Of a DNA stretch of 64,000 nucleotides, positions 206-54,437 are shown one piece after another. A program made the position numbers and the translations under genes. Every line of letters begins with the position of its first letter. Positions within the stretch are counted from its first letter, which is position 1. The notes under the pieces were generated by a model that did not search any database, was not told the DNA's origin, and worked only from the letters and a program-made list of their open reading frames with translations. Source of the DNA: Salinisphaera hydrothermalis C41B8 (GTDB lineage Bacteria > Pseudomonadota > Gammaproteobacteria > Nevskiales > Salinisphaeraceae); contig NZ_APNK01000005.1 in assembly GCF_000732535.1 (NCBI RefSeq), positions 1 to 64,000 of the forward strand. The letters run 5' to 3'.

Positions 206-493
206 TAGGGCGTGTTGAGGTTTCGTGCGAGCGCCGCGTTGGAGACCGCAAATCGTGACCGGCAAGGCGGGAGTCGCCGCGTCGTGGCGTGCCACGACCC
301 AGACTCGCAACGCCGCCGGGCGGGATTTGCGGCCCAACCCTTCGGGACAAGCGCTGTTTTGCGGCAATCCAGCGTTATAGCTCTCTCGCGTAGAAAACAA
401 CTACGCCACGTTCGCTACGCCTCGTCTTGCCGCCCCTAGTTAATTTTCAGGGAGCGCTTGGCGCGGACTCGCACGAAACCTCAACACGCCCTA
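206..493. repeat. TA-flanked inverted-repeat element, full copy 1
   Basis: A 288-bp non-coding element. Its two ends form a perfect 26-bp inverted repeat that starts TAGGGCGTGTTGAGG and, at the far end, reads as the complement. Inside are a perfect 8-bp hairpin (281-298, GTCGTGGC/GCCACGAC) and a 6-bp hairpin (388-406, GCGTAG/CTACGC). The same layout recurs at 37129-37427 and, more divergent, at 35455-35726. No open frame inside looks coding and there is no transposase. The size, the TA at both borders and the roughly 26-bp ends resemble MITE-like elements such as the Correia elements of Neisseria, but I do not recognise this particular family. Confidence 0.8.
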
Positions 494-11104: not shown

Positions 11105-11947
11105 TTGGGTTCCGTTCATGCTGTGCTTTCCATTGTGTCTGATTCGGTTGTCACCGACGCGCCGATCCTGATTTTCGACTCCGGCGTAGGCGGCCTCTCC
11201 GTGCTGCAAGCGATACGACGCCACCTGCCTACGGCGCCGGTGGTGTATGCCATGGACGGCGCGGGCTACCCCTACGGCCAGCGCGACGACGCCGAGTTGA
11301 CCGCGCGGGTTCCGGCTCTGTTGGGGCGTCTTGTCGAACGCTATCGGCCGCGACTGGCCGTGATTGCGTGCAACACGGCCTCGACCATTGCCCTGGCGAC
11401 GGTTCGTGACGCGCTTGCTGTGCCGGTCGTAGGGACCGTGCCGGCGATCAAACCCGCCGCTGCCTGTTCGGCCACCCGCGTGATCGGCGTGCTCGGCACC
11501 CGCGCCACCGTCCGACAGGCCTATGTCGACGATCTGACCCGTCGTTTTGCGGCCGACTGCCGCGTACTGCGTCATGGCGCCCCTACTCTGGTCGACTATG
11601 TGGAATCGACGCTGCGTGACCAAACGCCCGCCGATCCCGATGCCCCCCGGCACGCGCTCGCGGGGCTGTTCGAACAGCCGGACGGAAACGCCATCGATAC
11701 CATCGTGCTGGCTTGCACGCATTTTCCTCTGGCGGCCGACGCTTTACAGGGCGTCGCCCCCGCGCACGTCCGGTTCGTCGATGGAGCCGAAGGTATTGCC
11801 AGGCGCTGTGCCACCCTGCTCCACGGCCAACCGTGGCCGCAGCATACCGTACCCGGCGTTACTGTGACGACCGGGCCCGCGAACGCTTGCGCCGCGCTCG
11901 CACCCGGGCTGGCACGCCTGGGCCTGGCGCCGCCGACGACGTTCTAG
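11105..11947 (+). CDS. murI: Glutamate racemase
   Basis: A glutamate racemase, which supplies D-glutamate for peptidoglycan. The N-terminal ILIFDSGVGGLSVL and the two catalytic cysteines (VIACNTAST and VLACTHFPL) are present, as is GTVPAIKPA. The frame opens with a TTG at 11105; GTG codons at 11123 and 11135 are alternative starts and would bring the protein closer to the usual 265-270 residues. The TAG stop at 11945-11947 is the first three bases of a partial inverted-repeat element, so the current 3' end may have been reshaped by that insertion. Confidence 0.9.
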   Translation: MGSVHAVLSIVSDSVVTDAPILIFDSGVGGLSVLQAIRRHLPTAPVVYAMDGAGYPYGQRDDAELTARVPALLGRLVERYRPRLAVIACNTASTIALATVRDALAVPVVGTVPAIKPAAACSATRVIGVLGTRATVRQAYVDDLTRRFAADCRVLRHGAPTLVDYVESTLRDQTPADPDAPRHALAGLFEQPDGNAIDTIVLACTHFPLAADALQGVAPAHVRFVDGAEGIARRCATLLHGQPWPQHTVPGVTVTTGPANACAALAPGLARLGLAPPTTF

Positions 11948-12129
11948 GGACTGTTGCCGTTTCGTGCGGGTCCGCGCCAAGTGCTCCCTGAAAATTAACC
12001 AGGGGCCGCAAGATGAGGCGTAGCGAACGTGGCGTAGTCGTTCTGCGCGAGCGAGCGACAACGCTGGATTGCCATCGTGTCGTTAATTTAAGGGCGCGTG
12101 TCCCTTCGGGTTGGGCCGCAAATCCCGCC
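11945..12129. repeat. Partial inverted-repeat element (left end plus core)
   Basis: Starts TAGGGACTGTTGCCGTTTCG and follows the reverse complement of the 206-493 copy for about 185 bp, including the 6-bp hairpin at 12032-12048 (GCGTAG/CTGCGC, with one T-G wobble) and the AACGCTGGATTGCC block at 12060-12073. Its own right terminal repeat is missing. A matching terminal repeat with the same TTGCCG variant lies at about 16036-16061. The TAG of its left end is the murI stop codon. Confidence 0.7.
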
Positions 12130-15954: not shown

Positions 15955-16061
15955 TGGCCTTGCCGCACAACAGGGCGCGGTGCCCGTCCGGAAACGCGAC
16001 CCGGCCACGCTGATTGTCCGGCGATGCCGCGCAGACTCGTGCGAAACGGCAACAGGCACTA
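15955..16061. repeat. Partial inverted-repeat element (right end)
   Basis: Ends CGTGCGAAACGGCAACAGGCACTA. Read in reverse it starts TAGTGCCTGTTGCCGTTTCG, sharing a 14-bp core (CTGTTGCCGTTTCG) with the left end at 11945 that other copies in the window lack. The left limit is uncertain. The piece is about 110 bp, so together with 11945-12129 it would make one element of roughly normal length. Confidence 0.55.
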
Positions 16062-16320
16062 GAATAGCGCCCCTGTAACGCGCGGTATGCGACCGCCCGG
16101 GCAACGCCTCGAGCGCCTGTCGTACAATAGCTGCATAAACCAGCCATTCGGATCATCGATAATATCGACGATGCGGATGGGTCCAACGACGACGATACAT
16201 ACCGGTCTAGCCGAAAAACCGTTCGCCCTCGGCGCAGCGCGCCGACACGGCTTGCGAAATACGGTCACCATCCCCACCCCAGTGGGATCACCACAAGCTC
16301 TGCGAGGTTGAAACGCGACG
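16062..16320. other. Upstream region of icd
   Basis: No gene seen. The stretch is locally less GC-rich (for example around 16130-16205) than its neighbours and must hold the icd promoter. I cannot assign a firm -35/-10 pair. Confidence 0.35.
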
Positions 16321-34221: not shown

Positions 34222-35457
34222 ATGCCGGCCTCCGATCCCGATATCTCGCGGCCGAACGCGAGCACAGCCCCCTATTCCGAGCTCGATTCATCGCGCGGCC
34301 GCCCCGGGCGCCCGGCCATGCCGCCGCGCTACCTCTGGGCCGCGTTGATTACAGCGGCCGTGATCGTCTACGGCTCGCTCAACCCGTTCGATTTCTATGC
34401 CGGACGCGGCGGCAATCCGGTGCTGTTTCTTTTGGCGCACTGGCGTACCCCGGCTCAATCGCCGGCCGGATTCGTGGCCAACATCGTGCTGTATCTGCCA
34501 CTCGGGTTGTTCATCGGGCTCGCCGGGTCGGATCGGCATCGAGCCTCACGGGTCGTTCTGGCAGCGGGCCTGACCAGTCTCGCTCTCTGCGTCAGCGTCG
34601 AACTCGTCCAGTTTTACGACTGGGGCCGCCAGACCACGCTCACCGATGTCTATCTCAACGTGCTGGGCGGCGCGCTGGGTGGCTGGATCGCGACCCGCAT
34701 ACCGGCGCGCCTGCGACAACCGGTCGGCGACCTGCGTCAGCCCGGCGTCTGGGCCCTACTGGCGGCGTTCGGCGTGATCGAGCTCTATCCGTTCGTGCCC
34801 ACGCTCAACACCGGGTGGTATGCGGACGCGCTCAGCTCGTTGTGGCGACACCCGCATATCGATCCGCTGGGCCTGGCGCGCGAGACGCTGCGCTGGCTTG
34901 TCGCTGCCTGCCTGTTCGGCCAGCTCATCGGCGCGCGCCGTACGCGCGTGCTATTGCCGATCATCATGCTCGTCGTGTTCTGTGCCCAGATCGTGATGCT
35001 GAATATCTGGCTGTCGATCACGGAATGGACCGGCGCGCTGATCGCGCTGGCCCTGTGGCTCGGGCTGGCCACGCAGCCCCGCCAACGACGCGCCGGCGTT
35101 ATCGCCGCGGCTCTGGCCCTTGTCCTGCTCGCCGAGCATTTGCTGCCCTGGCACGAGCAATCCGGCGCGCCTCTTGGTTCGGTATTCGGCTTCGCCGACG
35201 TGGACGGGCTTTCGCCGATCGCCACCGCGCGCCATGTCATTGCCCATTTCTACGCGGCCGGCGCGCTTGTCTGGCTGACTGCGATCGCTGGCGTCGGCCG
35301 GTGGCGCGCAGCCGTCGGCACGGCTATGTTCTTTCTCGGCCTCGCGCTGATCCAAACCCGAGATGCCGGCCACCCGCCGGGTCTGACCGATACGCTGCTC
35401 GCCGTGCTGGCCGGCGTGTTGTTTATCGGGGCCGGCGATCGCGACGAGCCGGTTTAG
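34222..35457 (+). CDS. VanZ-like membrane protein (second copy)
   Basis: A 411-residue protein with about 9-10 hydrophobic helices, paralogous to the protein at 29940. Matching features are GSLNPFDFYAGRGG, NIVLYLPLGLFIGL and SVELVQFYDWGRQTTLTDVYLNVLGG. Its TAG stop (35455-35457) is the first three bases of the inverted-repeat element that follows. It is divergent from the SDR gene at 34135. A role in the cell envelope is likely from the family and the neighbouring sugar-nucleotide genes, but unproved. Confidence 0.85.
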   Translation: MPASDPDISRPNASTAPYSELDSSRGRPGRPAMPPRYLWAALITAAVIVYGSLNPFDFYAGRGGNPVLFLLAHWRTPAQSPAGFVANIVLYLPLGLFIGLAGSDRHRASRVVLAAGLTSLALCVSVELVQFYDWGRQTTLTDVYLNVLGGALGGWIATRIPARLRQPVGDLRQPGVWALLAAFGVIELYPFVPTLNTGWYADALSSLWRHPHIDPLGLARETLRWLVAACLFGQLIGARRTRVLLPIIMLVVFCAQIVMLNIWLSITEWTGALIALALWLGLATQPRQRRAGVIAAALALVLLAEHLLPWHEQSGAPLGSVFGFADVDGLSPIATARHVIAHFYAAGALVWLTAIAGVGRWRAAVGTAMFFLGLALIQTRDAGHPPGLTDTLLAVLAGVLFIGAGDRDEPV

Positions 35458-35726
35458 GGCGTGTCGTCACGAGAGACACCACCGCATGAGGCCCGCCCAT
35501 CGTGTCAGGCAAGACGCATGCCGCCGAGCGTGGCGGGCCCCACGGTCAAGGCATGCAACGCCGCCTGGCGCGGTGGGCGGGCATCACCCGCAGGGCCCGT
35601 GCCGGTGAGGCGGCAATCCGGCGTTATCGTTCGCTCACGTGGCCGGGCCACGCGACGCTCACGATGCCTTGTCTTGCCACCTCATGGGCGCGGGTGCGGC
35701 GGTGTATCTCATGACGACACGCCCTA
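35455..35726. repeat. TA-flanked inverted-repeat element, full copy 2 (divergent)
   Basis: A 272-bp element filling the gap between two convergent genes. The ends form a 31-bp inverted repeat with three mismatches, starting TAGGGCGTGTCGTCA. Only the first ten bases match the ends of the other copies; the interior keeps GGCAATCCGGCGTTAT (35612-35627), CAACGCCGCC and CTTGTCTTGCC. A hairpin CGTGG/CCACG (35638-35652) sits where other copies have GCGTAG/CTACGC. The first TAG is the stop of the second VanZ-like gene and the last CTA is the stop of the exporter gene on the other strand. Confidence 0.8.
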
Positions 35727-36938
35727 GGTCTCGTCAGGCGCCGGCGCCCAACGACGCAGCGCCAGATAAGCCACGAATGCCGAACCGGCGGCTCCCGCCA
35801 TCACGATCGCCATCGCTTCCGCGTCGCCGCCGATGAACCCGACGGCCCAGGTTGCGATCGCGCCACAGGCGAACTGGAACACGCCGAACAGCGCCGAGGC
35901 CGCACCGGCCGCGTCGGGCGCCAGATCCAGCAGACCGGCGACCGTGTTCGCGCCGGCCACACCGACCGTCGACAACAGGAAGAACAAGGGAACGGCCACC
36001 CCCCAGAACCCGCCGAAGCCGGTGAGCGTGGTCGCCAGCAGGACCAGCGAGCACGTCAGCGTGTTGCCGACCGCCACGCCCAGCAAGGTTCGATAGCCGA
36101 AACGCTGCACGATGCGGCCGTTGGTGAACGTCCCGATCAGCATCGACACGACGTTGGTACTGAAATAGAAACCGAACAACGATTCGTCGACACCGAACTG
36201 GTTCACGTAAACGAACGAGCTGGCCGCGACATAAGAAAACAGCGCGCCGAACATCAGCGAACCACAGGCCAGATACAGAAACACCGGCAGCCGCGTGACC
36301 AGCGAAACATAGCCGATGTACTGCGACGTCAGACTGCGATCCCGCACGCGACGATGATGCGGATGCGACTCCACCAGCAGCACGGCCAGTGCGATCAGTG
36401 CGACCACCGAGTAGCCCACCAGCATCCAGAAGATGAGCTGCCACTCGCCCAGAAACAGGATCAGGCTGCCGATCATGGGCGCAATCAGCGGCGCCGCGCC
36501 CATGACCATCACCACGAACGACATCACGCTGGCGGCCTTGGCGCCGCGAAAACGATCGCGCACGATGGCCCGGGCCATCACCGGCCCGGCCGCCGCGCCG
36601 AGTCCCTGCACCAGACGCGCGACGATGAGCATGTTGATCGACACGGACAAGGCACAGGCGAGGCTCGCGACCAGATACAACGCCAGGCCGAAATAAAGCA
36701 CCGGCCGACGGCCGTGGCGGTCCGAGATCGGCCCATACAACAGCTGGCCGAAGCCAAGCCCGACAAAGAACAGACTCAGGCTGTACTGAACATGCGCCGG
36801 ATCGACCGCAAACTGTCGGGCCAGCGCCGGCATGGCCGGCAAATAGGTATCGATCGACAACGGCGCGACAGCCGTCAGCAGGCCGAGTACGCAGACCATG
36901 AGCACGTACTCGCCCCGGCTCTGAGCGGTTTCGGTCAT
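35724..36938 (-). CDS. Bcr/CflA-family multidrug exporter (MFS)
   Basis: A 404-residue, 12-helix drug:H+ antiporter. SIDTYLPAMPALARQF at the first helix, GLGFGQLLYGPISDRHGRRPVLYFGL between helices 2 and 3, and RLVQGLGAAAGPVMARAIVRD in helix 4 are Bcr/CflA patterns. It probably exports drugs such as bicyclomycin or chloramphenicol, or a native metabolite. The ATG at 36938 has AAGGAG eight bases upstream; the longer frame from 36956 overlaps that site. Its TAG stop is supplied by the right end of the inverted-repeat element. Confidence 0.88.
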   Translation of the reverse strand: MTETAQSRGEYVLMVCVLGLLTAVAPLSIDTYLPAMPALARQFAVDPAHVQYSLSLFFVGLGFGQLLYGPISDRHGRRPVLYFGLALYLVASLACALSVSINMLIVARLVQGLGAAAGPVMARAIVRDRFRGAKAASVMSFVVMVMGAAPLIAPMIGSLILFLGEWQLIFWMLVGYSVVALIALAVLLVESHPHHRRVRDRSLTSQYIGYVSLVTRLPVFLYLACGSLMFGALFSYVAASSFVYVNQFGVDESLFGFYFSTNVVSMLIGTFTNGRIVQRFGYRTLLGVAVGNTLTCSLVLLATTLTGFGGFWGVAVPLFFLLSTVGVAGANTVAGLLDLAPDAAGAASALFGVFQFACGAIATWAVGFIGGDAEAMAIVMAGAAGSAFVAYLALRRWAPAPDET

Positions 36939-37128
36939 CGAGTGAGCTCCTTGCACCGCCCGGCGGGCGGCAAGACGGGCGCGCAGAATAGTCGCCGCGG
37001 GCTGCGGCGGCGCGTCGGTTCAAGTGGCGCGTATTATGCCAGCGGGGTCTACGGCCGGCTAACCGCGCCGGGCAGAACGTCAGGCGCAGCACGCCCCGGC
37101 GTCGCGTTCTTACGCAACCTAAACGCCC
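36939..37128. other. Upstream region of the MFS gene, no gene seen
   Basis: GC-rich non-coding DNA that leads into the inverted-repeat element starting at 37129. The last bases before it (CGCCCTA) mirror the start of the element, so another element end may once have lain here. Confidence 0.35.
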
Positions 37129-37427
37129 TAGGGCGTGTTGAGGTTTCGTGCGAGCGCCGCGTTGGCGTCCGCAAATCGTGTCCGGCAAGGCGCGAGTCGC
37201 CGCGTCGTGGCGTGCCACGACCCAGGCTCGCAACGCCGCCGGGCGCCCCTGGTTAATTTTTTATGGGCGGCCCAACCCGAAGGGACAAGCGCCCTTAAAT
37301 TAACGACACGACGGCAATACAGCGTTGTAGCTCTCTCGCGTAGGTTCACTACGCCACGTTCGCTACGCCTCGTCTTGCCGCAAAACAGCGCTTGGCGCGG
37401 ACTCGTACGAAACCTCAACACGCCCTA
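37129..37427. repeat. TA-flanked inverted-repeat element, full copy 3
   Basis: A 299-bp copy close to that at 206-493. The end repeats agree over 26 bp with one mismatch. Internal hairpins are at 37204-37221 (GTCGTGGC/GCCACGAC) and 37338-37354 (GCGTAG/CTACGC with a different loop). It has a segment GGGCGCTTGTCCCTTCGGG (minus strand) also seen in the 11945 copy. The terminal CTA at 37425-37427 is the TAG stop codon of mdcH. Confidence 0.8.
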
Positions 37428-38363
37428 AGATTCCCGTGTTCGCAGGATCAGTGCCCGGGCGTTGGCCCGTCCGGCGTCGGCCCAGGCGATGGCCTCGCCG
37501 GGCGGTTCGACCGCCGGGTGCAATCGCGTCAACGTATGGCCGGGCGGCATCTCGACGGCGAGCCGAAAGTCTGATTCATCGACGATACGGGCGGTATCGG
37601 CCCAGCGGACGGTACGCGCCATGTTGAACACGAGATCGTCGCGGATTTCCTCGCCCCGCCACAGACGACGACGCCGATTGGCCGAAAAATAAGCCAGGCG
37701 CGGGGCGTTGAATGTCACTTCGGCGGCAATCCGTTGCAGTGCCTCGGCCGGCGCATCCATCAGCGCACAGTGGGACGGCACTGACATGTCGAGCCGTATC
37801 ACACGCTGCGCGCCTGCCCGGCCGGCCTCATGTTCGAGCCGGGCGAGCGCCGCCTCGGCCCCGGCAACCACAATCTGCTGATCGGCGTTCACATTGGCCA
37901 GATACAGCGCGTCGGCTGCCTGAGTTCCGGCATTCAGACGCTCAAGCAAGGCGACCACGGCCGCCTCCGACAAGCCGATGACCGCCCTCATACCGTAGCC
38001 GCGCGGATAGGCCTCGCGCATCAGCCGCCCGCGTTCGGCCACCAGCCGGACGGCATCGCCGAAATCGAGCGCGCCCGCGATAACGGCGGCCGGCCAGGCG
38101 CCGATGGACAGGCCCATCGCGGCCGACGGCGGCGCGCCCGCGTCGATCAGATCACGTGCCGCCGCCACACCGACCACACACAACGCGATCTGGACCGCAC
38201 GGGTATCGGCCAGCGCCTCGGGCGTATCCAGCGCCCGCACCTCTTCGCCCAGCGCCTCGCTGGCCACGGCCAGCGTATCGGCCACGACAGGCGTGTCCGG
38301 CAGCTCGACCAACATACCCGGGCGCTGCGCGCCCTGGCCCGGAAAAGTGAACACGACGCTCAT
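37425..38363 (-). CDS. mdcH: Malonate decarboxylase epsilon subunit (malonyl-CoA:ACP transacylase)
   Basis: A 312-residue FabD-like acyltransferase. FTFPGQGAQRPGML is the substrate-entry motif and MGLSIGAWPAAV carries the catalytic serine (GLSIG in place of the usual GHSLG). Later residues include MSVPSHCALMDAPAE with the histidine and YFSANRRRRLW. In the mdc pathway it loads a malonyl group onto the acyl carrier subunit to start the cycle. It is the last gene of the operon, 3 bp after mdcG, and its stop codon lies in the repeat at 37129-37427. Confidence 0.9.
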   Translation of the reverse strand: MSVVFTFPGQGAQRPGMLVELPDTPVVADTLAVASEALGEEVRALDTPEALADTRAVQIALCVVGVAAARDLIDAGAPPSAAMGLSIGAWPAAVIAGALDFGDAVRLVAERGRLMREAYPRGYGMRAVIGLSEAAVVALLERLNAGTQAADALYLANVNADQQIVVAGAEAALARLEHEAGRAGAQRVIRLDMSVPSHCALMDAPAEALQRIAAEVTFNAPRLAYFSANRRRRLWRGEEIRDDLVFNMARTVRWADTARIVDESDFRLAVEMPPGHTLTRLHPAVEPPGEAIAWADAGRANARALILRTRES

Positions 38364-47302: not shown

Positions 47303-48595
47303 ATGAGGAACCGGAGTATCTTTCGCAAGAGCGTCACGATCGGGTTGTCCATCGCGGCGATGACCGCGGGTAGCGCGGCCATGGCGGCGCAGAACAAGGG
47401 CACGGTCAGCGTATTGAACTGGTGGACATCGGGCTCCGAAGCCAAGTCCATGAACGTTCTGCAGCAGATGCTGGCGAACGAAGGTTACAAGATGGTCAAC
47501 GACGCGGTGTCCGGCGGCGGCGGTTCCAACGCCCGTACCGTGCTCAAGTCGCGCATCCAGTCGAACAACCTGCCGGGTGCGGCCCAGATCAAGGGTCCGG
47601 AAATCCAGCAGTGGTGCACGACCGGCCTGACCATGAACATCGACAAGGTGGCCAAGAGCCAGCACTGGTCGAAGATTCTGCCGGGTCCGGTTGCCAAAGG
47701 CATGCAGTGCGACGGCCACTACGTCGCCGTGCCGTTCAACCTGCACCGCATCAACTGGCTCTGGATCAACAAGTCGGTCCTGAAAAAGGCCGGCGCCAAG
47801 ATGCCGACCGACTGGGATTCGCTGGTCGCCGCACTGGAGAAACTGAAAAAAGCCGGAATCACCCCGATCGCCGGTGGCGGTGATACGTGGCAGGTCGCCA
47901 CCGAGTTCGATGCCATCGCGATCGCCACCGGCGGCGCCGATTTCTATCGCAAGGCATTCGTGGATCTCGACCCGGACGCGCTATCCAGCGACACCATGGC
48001 CAAGGTCTTCAAGCGTCTGCGCACGATCGAGCAGTACGAGGACCCGAACGGCCAGGGTCTGTCCTGGAACCATGACACCGGCCTGGTCGTGCAGGGCAAG
48101 GCCGGCATGCAGATCATGGGTGACTGGGCCAAGGGCGAGATCACCAACGACAACGCTACGCCCGGCAAGCAGATCGCTTGTATGGCCTTCCCCGGCGAGC
48201 ACAGCGGTTTCGTCTACAACACCGACTCGTTCGAGATGTTCAAGAGCGCGCATTCCGACAAGAGCGCCCAGTACGCCTTCGCGCGCACCGCGCTTTCGCC
48301 GAAATTCCAGCGCAAGTTCAACATGGCCAAGGGCTCGATCCCGGTACGCGAGGGTGTCTCGCTCAAGGGCTTCGATGCCTGCGCGAAGCAGTCCAAGAAG
48401 GACTTCACCGCGGCCGAGAAGAACAACGCTCTGGTGCCGAGCTTCTCCCAGGACATGGCCGAGAACGGCGCGGTCAAGGGCGCGATCTTCGACGTAATCG
48501 CCAAGTTCTACAACAACAAGAACATGTCGCCCGAAGACGCGGCCAAGGAAATGGCCTCGCAGGCCAAGCAGGCCAAGATGATGTCGCAGACGTAA
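47303..48595 (+). CDS. gtsA: Glucose/mannose-type ABC transporter substrate-binding protein
   Basis: A 430-residue periplasmic binding protein of the CUT1 family, with a signal peptide ending AAMAA near residue 29. VLNWWTSGSEAKSMNVL, SGGGGSNARTVLKSR, LPGAAQIKGPEIQQW, VAVPFNLHRINWLWINKSVLKKAGA and KAGMQIMGDWAKGE follow the pattern of Pseudomonas GtsA. It delivers glucose (or a similar sugar) to the permeases encoded next. GGAGG precedes the ATG. A strong hairpin follows the stop. Confidence 0.9.
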   Translation: MRNRSIFRKSVTIGLSIAAMTAGSAAMAAQNKGTVSVLNWWTSGSEAKSMNVLQQMLANEGYKMVNDAVSGGGGSNARTVLKSRIQSNNLPGAAQIKGPEIQQWCTTGLTMNIDKVAKSQHWSKILPGPVAKGMQCDGHYVAVPFNLHRINWLWINKSVLKKAGAKMPTDWDSLVAALEKLKKAGITPIAGGGDTWQVATEFDAIAIATGGADFYRKAFVDLDPDALSSDTMAKVFKRLRTIEQYEDPNGQGLSWNHDTGLVVQGKAGMQIMGDWAKGEITNDNATPGKQIACMAFPGEHSGFVYNTDSFEMFKSAHSDKSAQYAFARTALSPKFQRKFNMAKGSIPVREGVSLKGFDACAKQSKKDFTAAEKNNALVPSFSQDMAENGAVKGAIFDVIAKFYNNKNMSPEDAAKEMASQAKQAKMMSQT

Positions 48596-51787: not shown

Positions 51788-52417
51788 TCAGCGTCCGAGG
51801 CGAGCGGCGCGCTCCGCCGCGGCGCGAATCGGCGACTCGCCTTCCGGCAGGTCCCCTTTCGGCGGATTGGCCAGCCAGCTGCCGCCCACACATGGAATGC
51901 TCGACAGCTTGAGGTAATCCGACGCGCTCTGCTCCGTGATCCCGCCGGTCGGGCAGAATTTCACGTCGGGGAACACCGCCGCATAGGCCTTGATCGCTGT
52001 CGGCCCGCCGATGACCGAAGCCGGAAACAGCTTGACCTGCTGCCACCCCTGGCGGACGAGATAAGCCACTTCGCTGACCGTCTGTGCACCGGGCAGGTAA
52101 GGCAGATCGGCTTCGCGGCACACCGCGCCGACTTCGTCGGCGATACCCGGCGACACCATGAATTGCGCACCGACGTCTAGCGCTTCACGCGCCTGGGCTT
52201 CGGTCCAAACCGTGCCAATACCCATGCACAGTTCGGGCACCTCGGCCCGAATCGCCCGTGCCGCCTCCATGGCAACCTGCGTCCGGCGTGTGATCTCGAT
52301 CGTCTTGATGCCGCCGGCATACAGATCGCGCGCCATGGCAACGGCGTCGTCGACCGAATGGATGGTGACCACCGGGATCACCGGCGACATCTTCATGATG
52401 GCGAGTGTATCGGCCAT
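51788..52417 (-). CDS. eda: KDPG aldolase
   Basis: A 209-residue TIM-barrel aldolase that splits 2-keto-3-deoxy-6-phosphogluconate into pyruvate and glyceraldehyde 3-phosphate, the last Entner-Doudoroff step. KLFPASVIGG holds the Schiff-base lysine, FCPTGGITEQSASDYL binds phosphate, and IKTIEITRRTQVAMEA carries the catalytic glutamate. The ATG at 52417 has GAGGTAAGC just upstream; the longer frame runs into the repeat element and is rejected. The last gene of zwf-pgl-edd-eda. Confidence 0.92.
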   Translation of the reverse strand: MADTLAIMKMSPVIPVVTIHSVDDAVAMARDLYAGGIKTIEITRRTQVAMEAARAIRAEVPELCMGIGTVWTEAQAREALDVGAQFMVSPGIADEVGAVCREADLPYLPGAQTVSEVAYLVRQGWQQVKLFPASVIGGPTAIKAYAAVFPDVKFCPTGGITEQSASDYLKLSSIPCVGGSWLANPPKGDLPEGESPIRAAAERAARLGR

Positions 52418-52428
52418 GCTTACCTCGT

Positions 52429-52610
52429 GGGCATGTTGGTGTGTCGTACGAGCGCCGCGTTGGCGTCCGCAAATCGTGTACGGCAAGGCGCGAGTCGCCG
52501 GGCGCCCGTGGTTGATTGTTCATGGGCGGCCCCGCCCGAAGGGCCGGGCGCGGTTTGGCGGCAAAACAGCGCCCGGCGCGGACTCGGACGAGACATCAAC
52601 ACGCCCCCTA
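52429..52610. repeat. Inverted-repeat element, short copy inside the edd-eda operon
   Basis: About 182 bp between edd and eda. The edd-side end reads (minus strand) TAGGGGGCGTGTTGATGTC and the eda-side end GGGCATGTTGGTGTGTC; the two match at 20 of 24 positions. The interior keeps GTTGGCGTCCGCAAATCGTG and GCGGCAAAACAGCGC, but the hairpin core of the full copies is missing. CTA at 52608-52610 is the TAG stop of edd. The other end stops about 2 bases short of the eda ribosome binding site. Confidence 0.7.
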
Positions 52611-54437
52611 ACCGTTAAGTATCGGGCCCGCACCTTCCTCGGCCGGGGCGGCATTGTGGCGGAACAGCGCGAACAGTTCGCGCCCGAAACCGTATTCCGT
52701 GGGCGGCGGATCGGCGAACGCGACGTTCTCGCGCGCCTCCAACTCCGCTTGGTCGACCTGGACCGACAATTCGCCGGTATCGCTGTCGACGACGATGATG
52801 TCGCCGTCGCGGATCTTGCCGAGCATACCGCCGAGCTTGGCCTCAGGCGAGACCTGGATTGCCGCCGGCACCTTGCCGGACGCGCCCGACATACGACCGT
52901 CAGTGACAAGCGCGACCTGATAGCCGCGCTGTAGTAGAACCGACAGACTCGGCGTGAGCTTGTGCAGTTCCGGCATGCCGTTGGCGCGCGGTCCCTGATA
53001 CGGCACGACCACCACGACATCCTTGTTCAGCTCGTTGGCCTTGAATGCATCGAGCACGGCCTGCTGCGTGGAAAAGACCTGGGCCGGCGCCTCGATGCGA
53101 CGATATTTCTTGTCCACCGCCGAGGTCTTGATGATAGCCCGGCCAAGGTTGCCCTGCAGCACGTTGATACCGCCGGTCGGCGCGAATGGGTTGTCGACCG
53201 TACGCATGACGTCTTCGTCGTGGCTAGCGGCCGGGCCCTCACGCCAAGCGAGCTCACCGTTTTCGAGAAACGGCTCCTTGGTGTAGTGATGCAAGCCGTA
53301 GCCCTCGACTGTCATGACGTCGTCGTGCAGCAGACCGGCATCCAGCAGCGTGCGAATCATCAGCTGGATCCCGCCGGCCGCGCGCATGTGATTCACGTCG
53401 GCCACGCCGTTGGGGTAGACCCGTGCGAGCAGCGGGACGGCCGCGGACAGCTCGGCAAAATCGTCCCAGTTAATCTGAATGCCGGCGGCCCGCGCCACGG
53501 CGACATAGTGCATGGTGTGGTTGGTCGATCCACCCGACGACAACAGCCCTACCAGGCCGTTGACCACGGATTTCTCGTCGACGATATCGCACATGCGACG
53601 AGCCCGTTCGTCGTCGGCAACCGACGTCATTTCCACCGCGCGGCGCGCCGCCGCTTCCGTCAGCGCATGGCGCAGCGGCGTGCCCGGGTTGACGAACGAC
53701 GTCCCCGCTAGATGCAGCCCCATGAATTCCATCATCAACTGGTTGGAATTCGCGGTGCCATAGAACGTGCAGGTCCCCGGCGAGTGGTAGGCCATCGATT
53801 CGGCCTTGAGCAGCTCGTCGCGGCCGATCTCGCCCTGCGCGAAGCGTTCGCGCACCTTCGCCTTGACCGGGTTCGACATCCCCGAGGTCATCGGGCCGGC
53901 GGGGGCGAAGATCACCGGTAGATGACCGAACGCGAGACTGCCGATCAACAGCCCCGGCACGATCTTGTCGCACACGCCAAGACAGATGGCGGCATCGAAC
54001 ATGTTGTGCGTGAGCGCCACCCCGGTCGCCAGCGCAATGACGTCGCGCGAGAACAGCGACAGCTCCATGCCGGGCTGGCCCTGGGTCACGCCGTCGCACA
54101 TGGCCGGGGTGCCACCGGCGAACTGGGCAACGCCACCCGCGGCCCAGGCCGCTTTCTTGATGATGTCGGGATATTCCACGAACGGCTGATGGGCCGACAA
54201 CATTTCGTTGTAGGCCGATACGATGCCGACGTTCGGCCGTACGTCCGAGGCGAGCGCGTCCTTGTCAGGCTGGCCGCAAGCCGCGAAGCCGTGGGCCAGG
54301 TTCGAACACGACATGGTGCCCCGGTGCGGCCCATGCCGCCCGGCTTCGTTCATGCGCGCCAGATAATCGGCACGCGAATCGCGACTGCGCTCGATAATGC
54401 GCTGCGTCACATCGTGGATAACGGGATTGAGTGCCAT
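52608..54437 (-). CDS. edd: 6-Phosphogluconate dehydratase
   Basis: A 609-residue Fe-S dehydratase of the IlvD/Edd family that converts 6-phosphogluconate to KDPG. Residues such as [61 protein letters not shown] and [20 protein letters not shown] carry the cluster cysteines in Edd spacing. GGAGG precedes the ATG. The TAG stop belongs to the repeat element that separates it from eda. Confidence 0.95.

Follow-up and report, generated by a model that had tools for sequence, protein, structure and literature searches.

The first 64,000 bases of contig 5 of the Salinisphaera hydrothermalis genome (4.28 Mb in 91 contigs) form the window analysed here. A repeat with terminal inverted repeats (TIRs) lies in it, and we asked what this repeat is, what moved it and why it is found between genes. 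Six copies or parts had been described in a sequence-only reading, and we found three full and three partial copies at those places. The full copies are an A-type element of 288 bp with its arm A on the + strand (206–493; TIRs 206–231 and 468–493, perfect over 26 bp, TA flanks on both sides), a B-type element of 272 bp with TA borders (35455–35726, +) whose TIR, TAGGGCGTGTCGTCACGAGA, differs from that of the 206–493 copy, and an A-type element of 299 bp with TA at both borders (37129–37427, +). The lengths of 272–299 bp, the TIRs and the TA borders claimed earlier are thus borne out. The partial copies are a C-type element with a single end (TAGGGACTGTTGCCGTTTCG) at 11945 (11945–12129, −), a degenerate C-type remnant with a damaged interior, an approximate left limit and a right end near 16029–16064 (15955–16064, +), and a degenerate A-type element of 182 bp, internally deleted and worn at its ends (52429–52610, +). 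TIRs measured 26–32 bp in the window copies. The full copies encode nothing, as had been stated; their longest internal ATG-to-stop reading frames are 0, 53 and 11 aa. The 20-bp A end matched the window four times at ≤3 mismatches, and none of 100 shuffled sequences had any match. To the left of the 37129 copy, the flank (37099–37130, AACCTAAACGCCCTA) resembles the worn end of an older element.

All window copies lie between genes, and the relation is sharper than first noticed, for five of the 53 called genes end on the TAG of an element. The stop codon of a racemase-like gene (11105–11947) is the TAG at 11945–11947 of the partial C-type element. Both ends of the 35455–35726 element are the stops of convergent genes, namely a VanZ-like gene (34222–35457, +) and a Bcr/CflA MFS gene (35724–36956, −). 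The right end of the 37129–37427 element gives the stop of an mdcH-like gene (37425–38363, −). Finally, the 52429–52610 element lies between edd (phosphogluconate dehydratase; 52608–54437, −), whose stop TAG is the element end, and the KDPG aldolase gene eda (ORF 51788–52486, −).

We searched the whole genome with the 20-bp end TAGGGCGTGTTGAGGTTTCG and obtained 92 + 96 = 188 matches at ≤3 mismatches, a count that includes IS ends and single ends; the reversed control gave none. A first look yielded 168–170 candidates, just 40 and 12 of which were scored. The earlier estimate of several hundred copies was therefore too high, and 100–170 places is nearer. From the loci in hand, 77 distinct copies with both ends paired were collected (59 with A ends, 10 with B, 6 with C and 2 A/B hybrids), and elements were present in all 13 other genomes of the genus that were searched. 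Seventy-one of the 77 copies measure 271–316 bp (exactly 272 bp in 35) and six are shorter (146–236 bp). TA stands at both ends in 50 copies and at one end in 22.

The arrangement of the copies shows several further features. Length classes of 272, 287, 299 and 313 bp come from interchangeable short and long stem modules in the interior (columns 125–150, 184–204 and 285–300 of alignment A2, see below). Two hybrids (L087:1461–1735 and L093:1453–1657) combine an A end with a B end and switch inside the conserved interior, as expected from recombination between subfamilies. Tandem elements with one common TA occur at 48544–48581 of contig 7, at 144574–144989 of contig 2 and at L144:1495; copies can stack, since both borders of an element inserted into CTAG again read CTAG. 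Under a strict pattern, the outer flank is itself an element end in four of the 77 copies. Seven copies in S. hydrothermalis and the relatives G007 and G011 are bordered on one side by the same outer flank, CAAGACAC (left ends L008:483, L159:1200 and L164:1200; right ends L110:1772, L123:1812, L167:1512 and L173:1515), which is perhaps a compound or nested repeat. Copies at contig ends were considered as hidden copies of the insertion sequence IS-A described below, and all five that we checked were not IS-A.

Such repeats could in principle be intergenic sequence inherited vertically without any insertion, and their presence in all 13 relatives agrees with this. However, copies at unrelated places share up to 98% identity, and orthologous junctions in relatives are free of the element. 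The compared sites are orthologous gene junctions and not base-exact empty sites. In G013 and G010, edd ends with the same final residue and GGC TAG (a CTAG), and eda follows without an element; the edd–eda gap is at most ~60 bp in all 12 relatives with edd versus ~152 bp in S. hydrothermalis. Between mdcH and the MFS gene the gap is 469 bp in S. hydrothermalis versus 36–228 bp in 12 relatives, with an apparent 20-bp end remnant in G007. The VanZ and MFS genes of G010 have overlapping ends with no element between them, and G001 has an apparent decayed copy at this junction. Set against these relatives, the repeats are evidently insertions, as the sequence-only reading had held, and we give almost no credence to purely vertical descent.

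A mobilising enzyme elsewhere in the genome, sharing the TAGGGCGTGT end, had been predicted, and a likely one was found. The elements form three subfamilies with distinct ends of 18–20 bp, each common to a different IS5-family IS (840–864 bp) of the genome or genus. IS-A (864 bp; L057) has the end TAGGGCGTGTTGAGGTTTC, which is that of A-type elements. IS-B (840 bp; L074), with TAGGGCGTGTCGTCACGAGA and TAGGCTGTGTCGTCACGAGA as its two ends, matches the B type. IS-C (859/860 bp; L059 and L060) has the C-type end TAGGGCGTGTTGCCGTTT. Comparison of A-type elements with IS-A by eye showed that likeness is lost after about base 20. Ends, and only ends, therefore appear to be common to the elements and an autonomous IS, as is characteristic of type II miniature inverted-repeat transposable elements (MITEs). 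In S. hydrothermalis, a transposase gene lies within each of two pairs of A ends that are 864 bp apart. An in-frame stop interrupts two of the IS-A copies there, and one copy is intact. The intact transposase (267 aa) scored 257.7 bits with the IS5-family model NF033580 and also matched PF01609/PF13340. IS-C scored 267 bits and the pieces of IS-B 118.8 and 146.4 bits, so that all three types exceed the cut-off of 110 bits. Identity to the IS-A transposase was 39 and 41% for IS-B (two overlapping frames), 65% for L059, and 59 and 68% for the two pieces of L060.

The earlier proposal had been an enzyme of the IS630/Tc1 type, which uses a TA target, and the TA duplication would suit it. However, the IS that we found with matching ends encode IS5-family transposases, and the target is CTAG; all four IS copies lie in C-TA-G or C-TA-A. 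Since the ends are common to IS5-family IS, the partner would be IS5 and not IS630/Tc1, which we regard as very improbable.

The partner was not found everywhere, and IS with matching ends came to light for the three subfamilies only. The IS-A transposase was matched in eight of the 14 genus genomes and had no match in the other six (G004, G007–G010 and G013) despite the elements there. Elements without a transposase match also occur in the Solimonas genome (G040) and in all five Pseudomonas genomes of the search. An end pattern listed 30 ends in the Solimonas genome, with 11 pairs 270–286 bp apart and none at IS-like spacing. Beyond the genus, profile searches for a partner IS gave no match in 7 of 10 more distant genomes and in 7 of 10 genomes of named loci; the remaining three of each set (one of the latter again Salinisphaera) had some match, without matched ends.

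We reconstructed the target sites of the 50 S. hydrothermalis copies with TA at both ends and found CTAG 27 times, CTAA 14, TTAG 3 and TTAA once, with CTAC twice and GTAG, CTAT and TTAT once each outside YTAR. In the relatives, CTAG accounted for 22 of 36 reconstructed sites. This is a YTAR-type target, as dependence on the IS5 family requires. Even at CTAA sites the element end reads TAG, which assigns the G to the element and makes TA the duplication. The element begins with TA|GGG, so a stop codon hit by an insertion reads TAG afterwards.

To examine the genes that read into elements, we took 180 nt beside each TAG end and scored them with a codon model that had 44 ORFs of the window as its training set, where frame 0 means that the gene's stop is the element's own TAG. 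We tested 116 ends in S. hydrothermalis (71 with no clear frame) and 91 in the relatives (38 with no clear frame), leaving out ends other than TAG (32 and 27, respectively) and short flanks (6 and 2). At a threshold of 0.05, the frames that read in and stay open for at least 60 codons were distributed over frames 0/1/2 as 22/0/2 in S. hydrothermalis (p = 4 × 10−9) and 30/3/0 in the relatives (p = 8 × 10−12); thresholds of 0.1 and 0.15 gave similar results. The relatives' sample consists of 60 copies from six of the 13 relatives, of which G011 and G012 have at least two insertions in common. By genome, G008, G011 and G012 showed the effect clearly and G007, G013 and G001, which have few countable ends, only weakly. 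Eight more reading-in ends in S. hydrothermalis and two in the relatives stop less than 60 codons before the element. When genes stopping shortly before the element are included, frame 0 accounts for 23 of 32 and 30 of 35 cases, respectively. In total, 21 of 77 elements in S. hydrothermalis and 27 of 60 in the relatives serve as a stop codon. Outside the genus, the frames were 9/1/1 among 32 elements, which came from the 73 core matches listed once 10 Salinisphaera copies and 31 matches lacking an end pair had been removed.

The stop-codon pattern may not call for targeting of stops as such. Non-element CTAG sites in the window number 13 in genes, 2 on stops and 3 elsewhere, and non-element YTAR sites 40, 5 and 39. 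On these small numbers, and with CTAG as the target, the supply of sites together with the removal of insertions from genes could account for the pattern; if the looser YTAR were the target, the observed share of stop codons would be higher than expected.

The interior of the elements is better conserved than their ends. It consists of two imperfect hairpin arms flanking a small hairpin, and this core is kept while the ends change among subfamilies; B and A copies are ~70% alike, and this likeness is limited to the interior. The fold of element E1 had z = −9.8 (its reverse, −9.6), and the TIRs contribute to both values. Alignment A2 holds 69 copies, namely 53 of the 60 from relatives, 11 of the 77 from S. 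hydrothermalis and 5 from other genera; the relatives' copies outside it are L161, L184, L192 and L204 (uncertain bounds), L197 and L200 (by choice) and L183. With an inner structure taken from one copy, 88.9% of the cells were paired. Change on both sides was seen in 41 of 75 inner pairs and in 260 cells, against 82.5 in shuffled and at most 73 in slid controls, a count that relatedness and template switching can also feed. The likeness of arm B to the reverse complement of arm A was tested against the best of 200 shuffles and exceeded it in 16 elements of 28, namely all nine from Solimonas, all six from Nevskia sp. and one of three from Salinisphaera, with none of five from Pseudomonas.

What keeps this core may be explained in more than one way. 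It could be a functional RNA or single-strand DNA device, such as a stabiliser of mRNA 3′ ends, a terminator or an RNase III site, for which the transposon ends are only a vehicle. Conservation of the core under changing ends, the strong paired change and the position at gene ends, including that between the same-strand pair edd and eda, all suit such a device. The GU-versus-AC comparison for strand-specific RNA selection had a mixed outcome. In arm A, GU exceeded AC mismatches (20 versus 2 pairs). However, arm B has no such excess (11 versus 12 pairs; 112 AC cells and 30 GU cells), and over the whole interior AC cells (206) exceed GU cells (141), although the pairs lean to GU (39 versus 22, p = 0.04). 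In addition, copies with cut-down arms occur, and orientation relative to the gene ending on the element showed no clear bias (15 versus 7 in S. hydrothermalis; 16 versus 14 in the relatives). Rfam covariance models gave no relevant match in the nine loci searched, the sole match in an element being MIR3454 (23 bits, gathering score 142, E = 0.91). We consider this explanation possible but rather doubtful. Mutation itself could also maintain the palindrome, since template-switch correction during replication, which perfects quasi-palindromes and yields paired changes, acts readily on long imperfect inverted repeats; the TIRs, too, are filled with such changes. However, the arms retain mismatches and bulges across genera, as seen without counting in A2 and in a further alignment, A3, so this mechanism seems an unlikely cause.

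We propose that the family consists of non-autonomous type II MITEs mobilised in trans by IS5-family transposases, with a core kept by compensatory change, and we put the probability of this at roughly 0.86. The elements are short and non-coding and have TIRs and a target-site duplication. Their ends copy the TIRs of IS5-family IS, whose DDE transposase would act in trans, insert at CTAG or more loosely YTAR, and duplicate TA. Both ends carry TA|GGG, and an element that lands on the TA within a TAG or TAA stop therefore gives an in-frame TAG in either orientation, so that the neighbouring protein is unchanged. Purifying selection would clear insertions within genes and leave copies between genes and on stops. 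Compensatory change, presumably under selection on the fold, would hold the core, and the ends would diverge or be exchanged to suit different IS5 transposases. The sequence-only reading had not noticed the three subfamilies with their three IS types, the stop codons made by elements or the class-wide core.

We then explored the distribution of the core. The matches listed in a core-pattern scan came from Salinisphaera, Solimonas, Nevskia, other Nevskiales and Pseudomonas; 42 of the 73 listed had paired AGG ends, 30 of these spanning 267–272 bp. Matches in Pectobacterium (2), Planctomyces and Desulfovibrio had no TAGGG-type ends and were treated as chance. A model of arm A matched 70 of 274 gammaproteobacterial genomes and 59 of 221 genera, with rough E-values, 13 candidates scored per genome and the own genus counted in. 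Of 20 loci, 17 had terminal repeats that lie beyond the model, score above 20 shuffled controls and stand 267–287 bp apart; outside the genus this held for 15 of 18 loci, some with very different ends, e.g., TTAGAGCCTATCC. The single-contig genome G191 (3.0 Mb, same class) has at least 13 arm A matches (L345 among its loci) and so offers a complete genome in which the family is abundant. Three plasmid records, from Halomonas, Pseudomonas aeruginosa and Azotobacter, have copies over 96% of a Pseudomonas element. No annotated feature lies beneath these matches in a gene table that is incomplete, the Halomonas record being almost unannotated. The 206–493 copy had no match in plasmids, one other element had none in phages, and a contig scan with an over-specific core pattern gave none. 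It is conceivable, though we hold it only tentatively and at less than even odds, that the core is a class-wide, anciently conserved two-armed cassette that parasitises many IS5 transposases. Its ends would be swapped to fit the resident IS5 lineage, its fold would be selected for acting on transcripts or single-stranded DNA, and it would be harmless to the host as a stop codon.

Several known repeats are similar in part. REPINs consist of two inverted palindromic units moved in trans by a RAYT transposase, and have neither TIRs nor a target duplication. They resemble the present elements in the paired palindromic units and, on the view proposed here, in movement in trans. ERIC elements are 127 bp long, and we know of no IS with ends matching them. 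Correia/nemis elements insert at TA. The resemblance to these two families suggested by the sequence-only reading holds for layout and for nothing beyond it. Correia/nemis likewise are short, high-copy TIR elements with TA borders. The available part of a 2024 review gives them, in Neisseria, a length of 204 bp, RNase III cleavage and promoters (PMC10969869); that length and a host of another class set them apart. The same part describes ERIC as intergenic, palindromic and of high copy number in Gammaproteobacteria (PMC10969869), which our elements share, whereas length and the lack of a known matching IS distinguish ERIC. QMITE2 of Coxiella (~190 bp) lies chiefly in the 3′ untranslated regions of ORFs (PMC10969869) and is similar in its location at gene 3′ ends, but no link to CTAG or stop-codon formation is described in that part. 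By the type II MITE definitions given there (PMC10969869), the Salinisphaera elements look like members of this class. The nearest known system is MITEPsy1 of Pseudomonas syringae, an IS5-linked MITE with a CTAG-type target. According to the accessible part of its report, it is 100 nt long with an 18-nt TIR and a 4-nt duplication, probably derives from the IS5-family ISPsy2, uses CTAG or YTAA sites and has been demonstrated to transpose (PMC3189936). It differs in its TIR sequence and its 4-nt duplication, the Salinisphaera elements having TAGGG..TGT TIRs and a TA duplication, and that part describes no two-armed core or stop-codon pattern. Among titles and abstract openings, with subscription papers mostly outside this coverage, we found no account of the family, of a class-wide core with exchanged ends or of stop-codon-forming MITEs, which does not prove their absence in print.

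CTAG at gene ends as NNC-TAG, together with an end that rebuilds TAG either way, offers a simple route to harmless insertion. The exchanged ends on a constant core form a natural series in which the tracking of transposases by non-autonomous elements can be studied. Annotation could recognise the core, a structured repeat found in many Gammaproteobacteria for which our searches gave no Rfam family.
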